A DNA stretch of 64,000 nucleotides from Actinopolymorpha cephalotaxi. GTDB taxonomy: Bacteria > Actinomycetota > Actinomycetes > Propionibacteriales > Actinopolymorphaceae. The notes under the pieces are model-generated. The model was not told the DNA's origin. It searched no databases and saw only the letters and a program-made list of their open reading frames with translations. Positions 1,531 to 63,262 of this stretch are shown one piece after another (within the stretch, counting starts at the first letter, position 1; the number at the start of each line of letters is the position of its first letter). The position numbers were made by a program, and so were the translations under genes. The stretch lies in assembly GCF_013408535.1 (NCBI RefSeq), contig NZ_JACBZA010000001.1:1364001-1428000 (forward strand), written 5' to 3'.

Positions 1531-2496
1531 ATGCGCACAGCCAGGAGGCTCTCCATCGTGGCGATGGGGGCACTGCTCGGGCTCGGCCTGGTCGGGACCG
1601 CGCAGGCGTCGACCAGCGTCTCCCCGCAGACGAGGGAGGACACCCTGTCCGCGATGCACGGGGAGGCGTTCGCGTACGCCTCCTACAACGCGTACGCGCA
1701 GGAGGCGGCCCGGACCGGCATCGACGCCCTCGCCAAGTTGTTCCGGAAGACCGCACACACCGAGCGGTACGACCACTTCGCCGCCGAGGCGCGCCTGATC
1801 CACTTCGTCCGCGGCAATGCCGACAACCTGCGGACGTCGATCGCGGGTGAGACCCGCGAGGCCACCGTCATCTATCCGTACTTCGCCTACCAGGCCGAGC
1901 AGGACCGATGCGAGCCGGCGGCAAAGCTGTTCCGGGAGCTGGCGGCCGACGAGGCGGTGCACGCCAAGCGGTTCCGCAGGGCGCTGTACGCCATCACCCA
2001 CCCGCACTCGGGTGTCGTGGTCCCGGTGGGTGAGTACTTCCGGCCCAAGCCGATCTTCGCCAGCCTGCCCGCGTGCAGGGGCCGGACCCGGGAGAACCTC
2101 CTGGCCACGATCCGCGGCGAGGCCTTCGCCAACGCCTCCTACACCTCCTACGCCGAGAAGGCCCGGCAGACAGGCCAGCCGCGGCTCGCCCGGCTGTGGG
2201 AGAACACCGCGAGCCAGGAGCTGGGGGAGCACTTCGCCGAGGCGGCCGAGCTGTACGGGCTGGTGCGCGACAACAAGGCCAACCTCCTGAAGTCGATGAA
2301 GGGTGAGCTGCACGAGGCGACGGTCATGTACCCGACGTACGCGCAGCGTGCGGAGCAGGCCGGTGACGACGAGGCGGCGGACCTGTTCTTCGAGATCGCC
2401 GTCGACGAGGCCCACCACGCGTGCGACTTCCTGCTGGCGTCGCTGGAGATCGTCGTCCCGTCGACGCCTTCCGACCACGCCGGCATGCGCAGCTAG
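1531..2496 (+). CDS. Secreted tandem ferritin-like (rubrerythrin-type) protein
   Basis: The 321-residue product starts at ATG 1531, behind GAGGAGGGG; an in-frame start 45 bases upstream has no ribosome binding site and would bury the signal peptide. Residues 1-27 are a Sec-type signal peptide with a probable cleavage after AQA. Two homologous ferritin-like four-helix domains follow (about 35-165 and 185-315). Both begin GEAFA and both end with a helix bearing a metal-ligand motif (DEAVHAKRF; DEAHHACDF), with further Glu residues in GETREATV and GELHEATV. These are the EXXH and Glu ligands of rubrerythrin-like di-iron sites. No rubredoxin domain is present. A peroxide-handling or iron-binding role outside the membrane is inference. 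An 11-bp hairpin follows the gene, so it is probably monocistronic. Confidence 0.75.
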   Translation: MRTARRLSIVAMGALLGLGLVGTAQASTSVSPQTREDTLSAMHGEAFAYASYNAYAQEAARTGIDALAKLFRKTAHTERYDHFAAEARLIHFVRGNADNLRTSIAGETREATVIYPYFAYQAEQDRCEPAAKLFRELAADEAVHAKRFRRALYAITHPHSGVVVPVGEYFRPKPIFASLPACRGRTRENLLATIRGEAFANASYTSYAEKARQTGQPRLARLWENTASQELGEHFAEAAELYGLVRDNKANLLKSMKGELHEATVMYPTYAQRAEQAGDDEAADLFFEIAVDEAHHACDFLLASLEIVVPSTPSDHAGMRS

Positions 2497-2530
2497 CCGT
2501 TGCTCGTCGGCGCTCGTGGGCGCCATGCTG

Positions 2531-2565
2531 GAAGGGCCCGGTCGCCTGGCGCGGCCGGGCCCTTC
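2531..2565 (+). terminator. Hairpin terminator after the ferritin-like gene
   Basis: A perfect 11-bp stem (GAAGGGCCCGG with its complement) closes a 13-base loop 34 bases after the stop codon. There is no T-run, as is usual in high-GC actinobacteria. Confidence 0.6.
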
Positions 2566-2626
2566 GCCGCCGCGGGGCCGGCGACCGCCCGCGGGTACGG
2601 CGCCGGGTGACGGTCATACTGGGCCG

Positions 2627-2963: not shown

Positions 2964-3118
2964 ATGCGGCTCACGGCCGTGGCGTCCACAGGTTTCACCG
3001 CCCGGATCCAGGTATGTCGGTGGTCACCTCTAACGTCTCGGGTGTGATGAACGAAAAGACCACGCAGAAGAAGTCCCGGGGCTCACGCCGAGCCCCCGAC
3101 CTGACCGGGATGGCGAGC

Positions 3119-4162
<1,044 letters not shown>

Positions 4163-43647: not shown

Positions 43648-44385
43648 TCAGACCCGACGTAGGACCGCGACGACCTTACCGAGGATGACGGCGTCGTCTC
43701 CAGGGATGGGCTCGTACGCGGGATTGTGCGGCACCAGCCACACCTTTCCGTCACGGGGCCGATACGTCTTGACGGTCGCCTCGCCGTCGATCATCGCCGA
43801 GACGATCTCGCCCGACTCCGCCTCGGGCTGCTGACGGACGACCACCCAGTCGCCGTCGCAGATGGCCGCCTCCACCATGGAGTCACCCCGGACGCGAAGC
43901 AGGAAGAGCTCACCCTCGCCGACGAGCTGGCGCGGCAGCGGCATGATCTCCTCGACCGACTGCTCGGCCAGGATCGGGCCACCGGCCGCGATCCGGCCCA
44001 CCACGGGCACGAATGCCGGCGCCGGGCGGTCCTCACCGCTGTCGGTCTCGTCGTAGGCCGGCACCCCCGACAGGGACGCCCGCCGGGTGGACGCGGACGG
44101 TGCGAGCACCTCGAGCGCCCGGGGCCGGTTGGGGTCGCGGCGGATGAAGCCCTTGCTCTCCAGGACTCTGAGCTGGTGTGCCACCGACGAGGAGGACGTG
44201 AGGCCCACCAGCTCACCGATCTCACGCATCGCCGGGGGATATCCGCGGGTCTCCACCGAATCTCGGATGACTTCGAGGATGCGTCGCTGGCGTGGAGTGA
44301 GTCCGGTCGCGTCGGGCGGCCCGTCGGGCAGCTCCCGGACGTTCGCCGTAGGGGACTCCGTCGCCGTGTTTTTCCGCTTGGGCAT
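43648..44385 (-). CDS. lexA: LexA repressor
   Basis: LexA is the SOS repressor. The 245-residue protein starts at ATG 44385. Residues 30-90 are the winged helix ([40 protein letters not shown]). The self-cleavage site is Ala134-Gly135 in [10 protein letters not shown]; the catalytic dyad is Ser169 (RGDSMVEAA) and Lys206 (ATVKTYRP). All are intact. The upstream region carries three clear SOS boxes shared with the divergent LysM gene, so lexA is autoregulated. Confidence 0.97.
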
Positions 44386-44466
44386 AGCGGCTGTCTCCTT
44401 CCACAGATGTCGGGCCGCGACTCTGCCGGCCCTCGGAAGTGAGCCTAGAGCCTGGTCAGAGCACTT

Positions 44467-44482
44467 TCAAACATCTGTTCGA
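44467..44482. promoter_or_regulatory. SOS box 1 of the lexA/LysM region
   Basis: TCAAACATCTGTTCGA matches TCGAAC-N4-GTTCGA at 11 of 12 positions. Its centre is about 90 bases upstream of the lexA start. Confidence 0.75.
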
Positions 44483-44547
44483 CGCGTGTCGCGATTGATT
44501 TACCGGAGTCCCGAAATGCCGGGTAACGGAGCTTCCGGGCGTCTGCG

Positions 44548-44563
44548 TCGAACGTGTTTTCGA
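44548..44563. promoter_or_regulatory. SOS box 2 of the lexA/LysM region
   Basis: TCGAACGTGTTTTCGA matches the SOS consensus at 11 of 12 positions. It lies midway, 81 bases from box 1. Confidence 0.75.
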
Positions 44564-44616
44564 GCGAACTCTGGTGCTTGTCGGTGGGCTGGTGTAGAAA
44601 TCCATCAGTAAGAAGG

Positions 44617-44632
44617 TCGAACAGTCGTTCGA
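44617..44632. promoter_or_regulatory. SOS box 3 of the lexA/LysM region (perfect)
   Basis: TCGAACAGTCGTTCGA is a perfect match to TCGAAC-N4-GTTCGA. It lies about 120 bases upstream of the LysM gene start. Confidence 0.9.
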
Positions 44633-44715
44633 GCGCCGAAGCGGAAGTGGTGGCGCGGATGTGTGCAGCGGAAGCCGCCGCCGGCGGCGTGGTGGACGGC
44701 GAAGGCGTGACAGAA

Positions 44716-44731
44716 GTGAATCGGTGTTCGT
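44716..44731. promoter_or_regulatory. Weak fourth SOS-like box near the LysM ribosome binding site
   Basis: GAATCGGTGTTC within this interval differs at one base from the core GAAC-N4-GTTC, but the outer bases are off. It is 14 bases before the LysM start codon, so bound LexA would block elongation rather than initiation. Confidence 0.35.
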
Positions 44732-44744
44732 GGGAGGTCGGACG

Positions 44745-45440
44745 ATGAGCAACAGCGCGTCGGTGGTCTATCTCGAGGACTTCGTGTCCCGTCGGGCCGG
44801 CGGTGCTCCGGACCGCGGCCAAAGGCACCTCAGCCCGGTCGCGCCGCCGGTGGGCCCGGGCGACGTCCGGTCCCGCGACGCCCGGCCGCGAGAGTTTCGG
44901 CCGCGAGAGCTCCGACCGCGCGGCGTCCGTCCGTTCCTGCGGGTGCCGCACGAGGAGACGGAGGCGGCCGCCCGAGTGGAGGCGCCGTGCACGGCTCGGG
45001 GCGGTGCGAGCGAGGTGGCGCCCGGGCGGGTGCGCCCCGCACCGGGGGCTCGTCGACGCCCCCCGCGACCGCGGGGCGTGCGGTCGTGCGTGCTTCCGGC
45101 CGCCCGCGGGCGGTCCGACCCGTCGACTCTCCGCCTGACCAGGCGTGGCCGGCTGGTGCTGACCACGCTGACGGCCATGGCGACGCTGGCGCTCGTCGGC
45201 GTTCTCGGGCTTCTGGCGCAGGGTGCGTTCGGCGCCGCGGCCCGTGGTGCCGCTGACTCGACGGCCACGACCACGATCACGGTGGAGCCGGGGGAGACGA
45301 TGTGGGGGATCGCCACCCAGCTCACCCCCGGTGCCGACCCGCGGGCGACGGTGGACGAGATCGCCCGGCTCAACGACGTGTCCCGCGCAGGTGACCTGCG
45401 CGTCGGCCAGCGGCTGGTCGTCCCCGTCCAGGCGCGCTGA
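44745..45440 (+). CDS. LysM membrane protein, probable SOS division inhibitor (YneA/DivS/Rv2719c type)
   Basis: The 231-residue protein starts at ATG 44745 behind GGGAGG. It has an unusually long Arg/Pro-rich N-terminal cytoplasmic part (1-135) containing the repeats RPREF, RPREL and RPRGV (about 48-64), one membrane helix (about 137-160), and an extracytoplasmic LysM domain (177-228, TVEPGETMWGIATQLT to LRVGQRLVVPV) that binds peptidoglycan. Divergence from lexA and a perfect SOS box match YneA, DivS and Rv2719c, which block septation after DNA damage. Function is inferred from architecture and position. Confidence 0.8.
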   Translation: MSNSASVVYLEDFVSRRAGGAPDRGQRHLSPVAPPVGPGDVRSRDARPREFRPRELRPRGVRPFLRVPHEETEAAARVEAPCTARGGASEVAPGRVRPAPGARRRPPRPRGVRSCVLPAARGRSDPSTLRLTRRGRLVLTTLTAMATLALVGVLGLLAQGAFGAAARGAADSTATTTITVEPGETMWGIATQLTPGADPRATVDEIARLNDVSRAGDLRVGQRLVVPVQAR

Positions 45441-45937: not shown

Positions 45938-46432
45938 ATGCACTGCCCGTTCTGCCGGCATCCTGACAGTCGGGTGGTCGACAGCCGCACCGCCGACGAC
46001 GGCGCCGCCATCCGGCGCCGGCGCCAGTGCCTGGACTGCGAGCGCCGGTTCACCACCGTCGAGCAGGTCACGCTCGCCGTGGTCAAGCGCAGCGCCGTCA
46101 CCGAGCCGTTCAGCCGCGAGAAGGTCATCACCGGGGTACGCAAGGCGTGCAAGGGTCGGCCCGTCACCGAGGACTCCCTCGCGCAGTTGGCGCAGCGGGT
46201 GGAGGAGGCGATCCGGTCCACCGGTTCGGCGGAGATCCCCTCCCACGAGGTGGGGCTCGCCATTCTCGGTCCGCTCCGGGAGTTGGACGAGGTGGCCTAC
46301 ATGCGCTTCGCCAGCGTCTACCGCAGCTTCGACACCCTGGCCGACTTCGAGACCGAGATCGCGGTGCTACGCGCCGAGCACGACGAGACGGTGCCCGAGC
46401 CACGCCCGGGCGGGCAACCCACCAGGCCCTAG
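45938..46432 (+). CDS. nrdR: Transcriptional repressor NrdR
   Basis: NrdR represses ribonucleotide reductase genes in response to ATP/dATP. The 164-residue protein starts at ATG 45938 ([17 protein letters not shown]). The zinc ribbon uses Cys3, Cys6, Cys31 and Cys34; the ATP-cone domain (about 45-135) has [20 protein letters not shown] and a C-terminal [16 protein letters not shown]. It is 219 bases upstream of nrdJ. The two genes are the normal actinobacterial nrdRJ operon. Candidate boxes upstream suggest autoregulation. Confidence 0.96.
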
Positions 46433-60774: not shown

Positions 60775-60811
60775 CGAGTTAGAGGTCGGTGGCAGCCGGT
60801 AGAGTTCGAAC

Positions 60812-63262
60812 ATGCATTCGACGACGCAGGACCTTCCCGGCAGCGGCGGCCATGGCACCGTCGCCCGGTTGAAGGCTGCGGTCGGTATGTTCCGCGCCGG
60901 ACTCGACGACGCCCTGTCCACCCCCACCACCTACGTCGACGCCCGCGCCCTCGGTGACCTGATCGGCGAACTGACCGTGGAGGAGTCCCGGTTCGACGCG
61001 CTGAAGCTCGGGTGGGTACGTCAGGCCGAGGCCTGCGACATCGGCAAGACCACCGGTGCGGCGACCACGGCGGCGTGGCTGCGCACCACGCAGCGGATGG
61101 GCACGAAGGACTCCTACGCCACCGTCAACCTGGCCCGCGACCTGGACCGCACCATCACCCTGACGGCCCGCGCCATGGCACGCGGGGAGGTCTCCTTTCG
61201 GCACGCCCAGGTGATCGCCGCCGCGATCACCGACCTGCCCAAGTGGATCAGTCTCGAACAACGGGTGAAGGCTGAGGAGTATCTGATCGACGAAGCCAGG
61301 CGGCGTAATCCCGACGACGTGCGGGTGTTGGGGCGGGCGCTGCTGCAGTACCTCGCACCCGAGGAGTGGGAGAGACGGCTCGGTAAGGAACTCGGCGACG
61401 AGGAACAGGCCGCGCAGTGTGCACGGTCCCTGAAATACATCCCGAACGGCATCCCCGGGTCGGAGACAGTGGTGATCAAGTTACCGGTGCTGGAGATGGA
61501 ACAACTCCGCAAGATCATCGAGATGCTCATCGCCCGCGACAACGCCCAAGCACCCGATGACCGGCCGCTGGACCAGCGGCGTGGGGACGCGTTCGCCGAA
61601 CTCGTCGCCGCGATGGCCGAGTGGGAAGCCTCCCCCAACCGCGGACGTGGCAGAGACTGCGTCACCGTGCTGATCCACCTGCAGCAACTCGTGAACGGCA
61701 TCGGGTTCGGCACCATCGACGACCTCAACCCCGTCCGCCCCATGCCCTGCGGATGCCAAACCCCCGACGCCAAACGCCAAGCCCAGCGCCAGGCCACCAA
61801 GCGCAAGGCCCGCAAGCCCAGCAAGAACGCCGACGGCACCGAGGACAGCAAGCCCGCGAAAGCCGCGCCCAGCACCGGCGCGGCCGGCAAGCCCAAGAAC
61901 GCTGCGCCCAGCACCGGCGAACCCAGCACCGGCGAACCCAGGAACGCCGAGCCCGGCGAGAACGCCAATGACCTCAGGCTGGAACCCCGTCCGGGCCAAG
62001 GAGTCACCGAACCCGACGACACGAGCGGCCCCACCGCCGAGCTTGCTGACGCCGGCGAGACCGGTGACCTCGGCGACGCCGGTGAGCCGGATATGACAAG
62101 TGACCCCGTCCAGTCCGGCGACCCGGCCGATGCCGGTGACCTGGACGCGACGAGCGGCCCCGGCGAAACCGCCGAGCCTGCCGACCTCGACGACCCGGAC
62201 GTGAACAGCGACCCCGTCCAGCCCAACAGCCAGGCCGGTACCGGCGACCCGGTGGCGGCTCCGGTCGGCGCGGAGACCACAGCGACCGCCTCGAAAGGTC
62301 AACCAGGCAATGAGAAACCACCACCCGGTCAGCCGGACCCGCCGGCCGGGGTCGCGGAGCGAATACCCGCACCGCGAGAACCCGGCCAGCCCCCACAACC
62401 GAACACCGCCACCGGTACCGGCCCCGAAACTGAGCCGGGACCCCGATGGGATCCGCAACCCGAACCAGCCACCGGGGATACGGAAACATATACCGGACCC
62501 GAGGACGACAACCTCGGGACCGAAGACGAGGACGCCGAACCCGAAGAGGGCGCGGCGGAGCCCGAGGCTGCCCTCGGCCCCGACGACACGAGCGCCCCAC
62601 ACGACCGCGACAACCCCTACGACCGCGACAACCCCTACGACCGCGACAACCCCTACGACCGCGACAACCCCTACGACCGCGACAACCCCTACGACCGCGA
62701 CAACCCCTACGACCGCGACAACCCCTACGACCGCGACAACCCCTACGACCGCGACAACCCCTACGACCGCGACAACCCCTACGACCGCGACGACCCCGAC
62801 GGCTACATCGACTCCCGCGACGGGTGTCAGAAGTGTGGTGGTGGCGGGTCGGCCCGCATCGCCGGCCTACGTGGGGAGCCGCTCTCCGTCGCCACGATCC
62901 GGAGGCTGGCGTGCGACGCGAACATCATCCCCGTCGTACTCGGCGGCAACGGAGAGGTCCTCGACGTCGGCATGGCTGACAGGTTCTTCACCGAAGCCCA
63001 ACGCCGAGCCATCGCCGTCCGCGACGGATCCCACTGCCACTTCCCCGAATGCCAGGTCCCCGAACGCCGCTGCATCGCTCATCACATGACCGCCTGGGAC
63101 GACCTCGGACCCACCGATCTCGCGAACGGGGTGCTGTTGTGCCGGACGCACCACACCTTCGTTCACCACAAAGGCTGGACCGTGCGGATGGGTGCCCACG
63201 GCCACCCTGAGTACATCCCGCCCGAGTGGGTGGACCTGCACCAGAACGTACTCCGGCCATGA
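60812..63262 (+). CDS. DUF222/HNH endonuclease-type protein with repeat linker
   Basis: The 816-residue protein starts at ATG 60812. Residues 15-310 are the helical DUF222 (13E12-repeat) domain, with SFRHAQVIAAAITDLP and CVTVLIHLQQLV. A linker of about 290 residues (315-665) is low-complexity, Pro/Asp/Glu/Thr-rich, with GAPSTGEP units and then ten identical DRDNPY units (598-657). The C-terminal HNH domain is RDGSHCHFPECQVPERRCIAHHMTAWDDLG and LLCRTHHTFVHHKGW (about 735-795), with complete Cys and His ligands. DUF222-HNH genes are multi-copy in actinobacteria and of unknown role; nuclease activity is inferred. Confidence 0.85.
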   Translation: MHSTTQDLPGSGGHGTVARLKAAVGMFRAGLDDALSTPTTYVDARALGDLIGELTVEESRFDALKLGWVRQAEACDIGKTTGAATTAAWLRTTQRMGTKDSYATVNLARDLDRTITLTARAMARGEVSFRHAQVIAAAITDLPKWISLEQRVKAEEYLIDEARRRNPDDVRVLGRALLQYLAPEEWERRLGKELGDEEQAAQCARSLKYIPNGIPGSETVVIKLPVLEMEQLRKIIEMLIARDNAQAPDDRPLDQRRGDAFAELVAAMAEWEASPNRGRGRDCVTVLIHLQQLVNGIGFGTIDDLNPVRPMPCGCQTPDAKRQAQRQATKRKARKPSKNADGTEDSKPAKAAPSTGAAGKPKNAAPSTGEPSTGEPRNAEPGENANDLRLEPRPGQGVTEPDDTSGPTAELADAGETGDLGDAGEPDMTSDPVQSGDPADAGDLDATSGPGETAEPADLDDPDVNSDPVQPNSQAGTGDPVAAPVGAETTATASKGQPGNEKPPPGQPDPPAGVAERIPAPREPGQPPQPNTATGTGPETEPGPRWDPQPEPATGDTETYTGPEDDNLGTEDEDAEPEEGAAEPEAALGPDDTSAPHDRDNPYDRDNPYDRDNPYDRDNPYDRDNPYDRDNPYDRDNPYDRDNPYDRDNPYDRDNPYDRDDPDGYIDSRDGCQKCGGGGSARIAGLRGEPLSVATIRRLACDANIIPVVLGGNGEVLDVGMADRFFTEAQRRAIAVRDGSHCHFPECQVPERRCIAHHMTAWDDLGPTDLANGVLLCRTHHTFVHHKGWTVRMGAHGHPEYIPPEWVDLHQNVLRP
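62603..62800 (+). repeat. Ten identical 18-bp tandem repeats plus one degenerate unit
   Basis: GACCGCGACAACCCCTAC is repeated ten times without a single change (62603-62782), then once degenerately (62783-62800). The frame is kept and each unit encodes DRDNPY. Confidence 0.97.

Follow-up and report, generated by a model that had tools for sequence, protein, structure and literature searches.

Three LexA boxes and a PafBC-type promoter between lexA and a divergent LysM protein gene of Actinopolymorpha cephalotaxi: a predicted division of operators between two genes

The region between lexA and a divergently transcribed LysM protein gene in Actinopolymorpha cephalotaxi carries three strong LexA boxes, which raises the question of which box serves which gene and whether the boxes act in a graded manner. 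In the 64,000-nucleotide stretch of DNA analyzed here (the window), lexA is located at positions 43648-44385 on the minus strand and the LysM protein gene, encoding 231 amino acids, at positions 44745-45440 on the plus strand. Both gene assignments of the initial annotation were confirmed by profile searches. The lexA product contains the LexA HTH domain and the S24 peptidase domain (Pfam PF01726 and PF00717) and scored 243 bits against NCBIfam TIGR00498 (cut-off, 111), and the LysM protein matched PF01476. The latter protein, which is ChiZ/DivS/YneA-like, consists of an Arg/Pro-rich N-terminus (of 135 residues, 29 are Arg and 19 are Pro), a single hydrophobic segment (residues about 137-162), and a C-terminal LysM domain, as judged by hydropathy and composition; its score against the YneA equivalog profile NF010723 was 32.4 bits, below the curated cut-off of 60. 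A ribosome-binding site, GGAGG, is found at positions 44733-44737, and the next gene on the 3' side is nrdR (positions 45941-46432, plus strand; PF22811, PF03477, and TIGR00244), which is followed by a B12-dependent ribonucleotide reductase gene. We consider it likely, with a probability of roughly 0.85, that this locus represents, in Actinopolymorpha, an old actinobacterial arrangement for the control of lexA and of a divergent gene for a LysM-type division inhibitor, in which operator D would mediate autorepression of lexA, and operators C and A would bracket a PafBC-type promoter and give the LysM gene a dual input.

All three boxes were assigned to the minus strand. Box 1 (operator D) lies at positions 44467-44482 (TCAAACATCTGTTCGA; minus-strand reading, TCGAACAGATGTTTGA), box 2 (operator C) at positions 44548-44563 (TCGAACGTGTTTTCGA; minus-strand reading, TCGAAAACACGTTCGA), and box 3 (operator A) at positions 44617-44632 (TCGAACAGTCGTTCGA, a perfect TCGAACGACTGTTCGA). 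They are predicted to be the lexA operator, the upstream operator of the LysM promoter, and the LysM operator, respectively, box 3 being situated immediately 3' of the predicted LysM start site. Box 3 matches all 12 defined positions and each of the others deviates at one, with spacings of 81 bp between boxes 1 and 2 and 69 bp between boxes 2 and 3, exactly as initially annotated. In 2000 dinucleotide shuffles of the 359 bp between lexA and the LysM gene (positions 44386-44744), only 0.005 sites with no more than one mismatch were expected (0.0005 with none and 0.0045 with one), compared with the three found. A scan of the forward strand of the genome, a single contig of 6,858,585 bp, gave 72 sites deviating at one position or none, 9 of them perfect, versus 17 for a reversed control pattern. 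Boxes 1 to 3 are thus real LexA-box palindromes. They are very probably functional and, as predicted from their sequences, would be bound by LexA. Chance palindromes of GC-rich intergenic DNA would account for a weak fourth site at position 44716, described below; as an account of boxes 1 to 3, this explanation is close to negligible in view of the shuffled expectation and of the retention of all three boxes in every family genome compared. A chance array was ruled out both by these shuffles and by those performed across the class.

The fourth site (GTGAATCGGTGTTCGT), initially annotated as a weak LexA box, mismatches 4 of the 12 defined positions. Sites with four mismatches were expected 1.36 times per shuffle, and two were seen. 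This site is retained in the three closest relatives (G003, G004, and G005), the leader of which is mostly conserved. No site with four or fewer mismatches was found in G002, G006, and G007 within the 130 nucleotides adjoining box 3. Three weak sites occur near box 3 in G001, all at places other than the counterpart of position 44716. A fourth LexA box was consequently rejected: the site is at chance level, lacks a counterpart at that place in four of the seven relatives, and looks like a chance occurrence.

The lexA/LysM control regions of eight family genomes, including that of the window, were aligned; six of these belong to Actinopolymorpha. Boxes A, C, and D were present in the same order in all eight, and the loss of the extra boxes in all relatives, which the initial annotation had named as a refutation, was not seen. 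Invariant positions of the alignment amounted to 34 of the 36 defined ones in the boxes, 11 of 15 in the PafBC-type promoter, and 29 of 290 elsewhere. Among the six Actinopolymorpha genomes the respective values were 36 of 36, 15 of 15, and 59 of 290. Because four of these six are close to one another (97-100% LexA identity), a fairer comparison is that of the five distant members, which gave 34 of 36, 11 of 15, and 30 of 290. The spacing between A and C was 67-70 bp in all eight genomes; that between C and D was 81 bp in the window, 59 bp in G001, 66 bp in G007, and 38 bp in G006. Box C carries one mismatch in seven of the eight genomes. The remaining one, G007, has perfect A and C boxes and a D box with two mismatches. 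The divergent gene encodes a LysM domain in seven of the eight. The divergent ORF of G007 (L254, positions 2133-2567, minus strand) has the same start (MSSAPVIYLEDY versus MSNSASVVYLEDF), a basic N-terminus, and a hydrophobic segment, and stops after 144 amino acids; a LysM domain was found neither in this ORF nor in the surrounding stretch examined.

In order to place the array in a wider context, boxes with up to two mismatches were counted within 520 bp in a class sample comprising 90 of the 141 class genomes in which LexA was matched, 89 of which had sufficient upstream DNA. At least three boxes were found in 67 of the 89 genomes (56 of 73 when counted by genus) and at least two in 82; when only one mismatch was allowed, 36 of the 89 still had at least three. 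The mean number of boxes per locus was 2.87, compared with 0.033 in shuffled sequences, of which 0.02% contained three or more. The premise of the initial annotation, in which one or two boxes were taken as the norm, thus fails for this class: three or more LexA boxes are the commoner state among the class genomes examined, and the array of the window is not exceptional. In the commonest plan, two boxes (A and B) abut each other at a distance of 16 bp, and a box ending in GTTTG follows 52-54 bp from B and 68-70 bp from A. An abutting pair was present in 63 of the 89 class loci, and 50 of them (42 of 73 genera) had a GTTTG box 50-56 bp further on.

A GTTTG-ended box was found in 85 of the 90 class loci and was the box nearest to lexA in 76 of those 85. 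In 69 of the 85, TANNNT occurs 16-18 bp on from the TTG of this box, a count made without a shuffled control. The corresponding feature of the window is box D, which ends on the minus strand in TTTGA rather than TTCGA; that T creates the hexamer TTGAAA (positions 44465-44470, minus strand), which overlaps box 1 and is the predicted -35 element of lexA on the basis of sequence and the family alignment. A predicted -10 element, TAGGCT (positions 44442-44447, minus strand), follows after a 17-bp spacer. The combination is a good candidate for the lexA promoter. The -10 element is invariant at five of six positions in the genus and three of six in the family, and the counterpart of the -35 element in G007 is TTGGAC. 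The single mismatch of box 1 thus supplies the TTGA of the predicted -35 element, which suggests that it is a feature built in by the promoter and not a tuned weakness. In addition, a heptamer, CGACACG (positions 44485-44491, minus strand), just upstream of operator D and outside both the LexA box and the -35 element, is invariant in all eight family sequences and is also visible in many class loci.

On the LysM side, the sequence TTGTCGGTG-N8-TAGAAA lies between boxes C and A (positions 44578-44600, plus strand). It matches the motif of RecA-independent damage promoters, tTGTCRgtg-8-TannnT, as quoted in PMC5656591, except for the final T of TannnT. TTGTCRGTG-N8-TA has 20 exact sites in the genome, including this one, and the PafBC motif with at most one mismatch occurs at 161 genome sites versus 36 for a reversed control. 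Homologues of both PafBC subunits are encoded in the genome, with tatC positioned after their genes: the PafC homologue matched PafC in the PDB (2.5e-61) and Pfam HTH_PafC (2.4e-37), and the PafB homologue matched chain X of 9fnd (1.8e-61), an entry that also holds PafC, and the PafBC structure 6sj9 (4.6e-44). With this predicted promoter placed between boxes 2 and 3, the LysM gene probably responds to more than LexA release alone. Among the 79 class loci having a GTTTG box plus another box, a PafBC-like motif directed toward the LysM gene was found in 40, versus 0.7 expected from mononucleotide shuffles. A recognizable motif was missing from the other 39, and a PafBC motif throughout the class is accordingly not supported.

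The assignment of the boxes to the two genes was examined using 185 loci for which 900 bp or more of upstream DNA was available. In 121 loci, extra boxes accompanied a divergent LysM ORF, and 40 loci had neither; these are not independent cases, since the LysM profile itself was derived from them and Streptomyces accounts for 34 of the 40 lacking both. In 14 loci, including L083, in which the LysM gene is inverted, and that of G007, extra boxes were present but no divergent LysM ORF was detected. The converse, a LysM gene without a counted extra box, was found in 10: the split loci L090, L093, and L128, six loci without a GTTTG box, and L212, which has the lexA box alone. Boxes of the six went uncounted because the counting rule needed a GTTTG box; five of them hold at least one box with no more than one mismatch, and L215 has only one weak box.

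The rearranged loci separate the boxes physically. The extra boxes are about 0.7-1.0 kb from the GTTTG box in L090 and L093 and about 2 kb from it in L128, in each case beside the LysM gene, with the GTTTG box by lexA. In L083, the boxes of the LysM gene are inverted along with it, and the GTTTG box remains by lexA. Over these four loci, the distance of the extra boxes from the GTTTG box ranges from 0.6 to 2.1 kb. The same split of boxes was observed in L073, where the LysM gene was not found within the stretch examined. These natural rearrangements suggest that boxes of the box-1 type belong to lexA, and boxes like 2 and 3 to the LysM gene. The placement of three sites within 166 bp and the constant A-C spacing in the family would also suit joint action of A, C, and D on both genes, through cooperation of LexA dimers or a 166-bp loop, with stepwise release. 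We regard joint action as improbable, because the C-D spacing drifts among family members (81, 59, 66, and 38 bp), the two sets of boxes lie up to 2.1 kb apart in relatives, and the lexA transcript of Mycobacterium tuberculosis is described in the available part of PMC8151990 as uninfluenced by the other boxes.

The window departs from the class plan in two respects. Its A-C distance of 69 bp is the usual distance from A to the lexA box, and C thus occupies the old place of the lexA box, with D positioned 81 bp further on. In addition, the site abutting A, where box B is expected, has 7 or 8 of 12 mismatches in seven family members (7 of 12 in the window). The eighth, G006, has all four boxes, with distances of 16 bp (A-B), 53 bp (B-C), and 38 bp (C-D) and one mismatch in B. 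G002 keeps CCGCACGCCTGACGA at this place, which we read as a remnant of B. Judging from the eroded site, the ancestral box B is lost in Actinopolymorpha. With two LexA loci left out (L085 and L099), 197 of 199 were anchored, and the four-box form was found in 11 of them, including loci of Nocardioides (L079, L084, L087, and L103) and Pimelobacter (L082). Kribbella-type loci, in which the lexA box is about 120-150 bp from the pair, do not fit this form. We also noted in L066, L079, L082, and L103 a further two-mismatch site, beginning with TAG and containing the half-site GTTCGA, 19 bp from B; it is possibly an added operator or promoter element.

That C lies as far from A (69 bp) as the lexA box most often does in the class (68-70 bp), and that it has one mismatch in seven of eight family genomes, could mean that C is a remnant of an older, shared lexA operator with little function, and that only D and A matter, for lexA and the LysM gene, respectively. 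This is improbable, as all 36 defined box positions are invariant in the six Actinopolymorpha genomes, C is perfect in G007, and in the rearranged loci the LysM gene is accompanied by a box at the place of C. A functional C, belonging to the LysM gene, is the reading that we prefer. The single lexA operator found 50-56 bp from an abutting pair in 50 of 89 class genomes could act on both genes. For this family and part of its order, as represented by the 11 four-box loci, the lexA operator and promoter would lie further off, and C would be LysM-only. We tentatively propose, at less than even odds, a modular switch with two inputs whose history is still legible. In this view, a shared lexA operator was split, a LysM-only C took the old position, LexA sites came to bracket the PafBC promoter, and the division block would need both LexA loss and PafBC activation. 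The splitting of a shared operator into gene-specific ones would make this locus a testable case of two DNA-damage pathways that share a division checkpoint.

The predicted mechanism is as follows. LexA bound at D would cover the predicted -35 element of lexA and thereby bring about autorepression. The LysM promoter would be bracketed by LexA, because A lies downstream of the PafBC motif, some 10-25 bp beyond the predicted LysM start site, and C lies just upstream of the motif. Upon DNA damage, RecA-driven cleavage of LexA would free both promoters, and PafBC activated by single-stranded DNA would drive the LysM gene. PafBC is reported in the accessible text of PMC11804915 to be activated by single-stranded DNA and to insert between promoter DNA and sigma domain 4. 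The division block would then need, or be boosted by, both LexA loss and PafBC activation.

This scheme bears on the proposal of the initial annotation that LexA silences lexA and the LysM gene to different degrees. The proposal holds insofar as conserved boxes lie on two divergent predicted promoters, so that LexA could silence the two genes through different sites. Mismatches as a measure of graded strength are not supported: the mismatch of box 1 is the TTGA of the -35 element, and the GTTTG end is shared by 85 of 90 class loci. In M. tuberculosis, a lexA box with one mismatch was bound by LexA at 0.98 nM and a perfect dnaE2 box at 2.16 nM, according to the portion of PMC8607333 available, which indicates that one mismatch there need not mean weak binding. 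Graded release as such may still occur, given that S. venezuelae LexA is reported to bind its targets with distinct affinities, interpreted in the available part of PMC9380542 as a graded response.

Other candidate LexA and PafBC sites were noticed in this genome. Upstream of recA (positions about 3047-4162 of the window) there are a one-mismatch LexA box, TCGAACGCGTGTTCGT, at positions 2889-2904 and, 125 bp on from it, a PafBC-like motif, ATGTCGGTGGTCACCTCTA, at positions 3014-3032, a pair resembling the P2/P1 pair described for mycobacterial recA. The start codon of an ORF for a DUF222 protein (positions 60812-63262), which has nine YDRDNP units (positions 62618-62779), lies inside a LexA box, TCGAACATGCATTCGA, directly after the PafBC-like GGTCGGTGGCAGCCGGTA (positions 60785-60821). 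This box occurs at no fewer than four places in the genome (60637, 895809, 1424806, and 3591197), and three of these adjoin a TGTCGGTGGCAGCC-type motif, among the matches listed. Two perfect LexA boxes (L009 and L010; G000:C1:5882248 and 5883603) are about 1.36 kb apart; the second is upstream of an ORF of the IMS family (Y-family polymerase), and the ORF after the first had no Pfam match. We presume these to belong to an imuA/imuB-like SOS operon.

The arrangement in the window belongs to a known kind, since a similar layout has been reported for the lexA region of M. tuberculosis. In the available part of PMC8151990, four clustered boxes are described there, one of which is used by lexA; the neighboring operon, named Rv2019c-Rv2017c in the text and rv2719c in a supplement legend, is regulated by the other three and by a PafBC motif directed away from lexA. 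Multiple SOS boxes at this place were mentioned earlier, upstream of lexA, in the title of Dullaghan et al. 2002, which that paper cites. The likeness to M. tuberculosis lexA/Rv2719c (chiZ) thus extends to the clustering of the boxes and to the allotment of one box to lexA and of the rest, with a PafBC motif, to the neighbor. The window has lexA with HTH and S24 domains, a divergent LysM gene, a lexA box and LysM-side boxes as assigned by sequence and co-segregation, a PafBC motif toward the LysM gene that lacks the last T of TannnT, and PafBC genes. It differs in having three boxes instead of four, the box abutting A being eroded in Actinopolymorpha (7 of 12 mismatches in the window).

The layout of the LysM protein, with its N-terminus rich in Arg and Pro by composition, one hydrophobic segment, and a LysM domain, also matches that of ChiZ, in which a disordered N-terminus and one membrane helix precede a C-terminal LysM domain. 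Overexpression of ChiZ blocks division in mycobacteria, and its N-terminal region together with the membrane helix is enough to cause filamentation, as stated in the part of PMC7355643 at hand. The LysM-less form of G007 would fit this property. Corynebacterium glutamicum divS and Bacillus subtilis yneA both adjoin lexA. These genes encode damage-induced suppressors of cell division, YneA being a membrane LysM protein, according to the available text of PMC3989709. Unlike DivS and YneA, the protein of the window has a long Arg/Pro-rich N-terminus as in ChiZ, and it falls below the YneA cut-off.

Streptomyces loci differ from the window in that neither a divergent LysM ORF nor a further strong box was found in them; a single additional two-mismatch site is present in L129 and another in L134. 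Their box TCGAACGTGTGTTTGG contains the S. venezuelae table entry TCGAACGTGTGTTT, and S. venezuelae LexA binds both lexA sites in surface plasmon resonance, as given in the part of PMC9380542 available. At mycobacterial recA, a LexA-dependent promoter and a PafBC-dependent one (P1) act on one gene in the account available from PMC5656591, and in the window this combination is predicted on the LysM gene. A literature search returned no paper on lexA in Actinopolymorpha, and no description of a class-wide layout was found in the accessible portions of papers on PafBC, SOS boxes, and lexA promoters in Actinobacteria; older papers were thinly covered in both cases. To the M. tuberculosis arrangement, the present comparison adds a common lexA box embedded in the predicted promoter, a gene-by-gene assignment of boxes suggested by rearranged relatives, and the apparent loss of box B in Actinopolymorpha.
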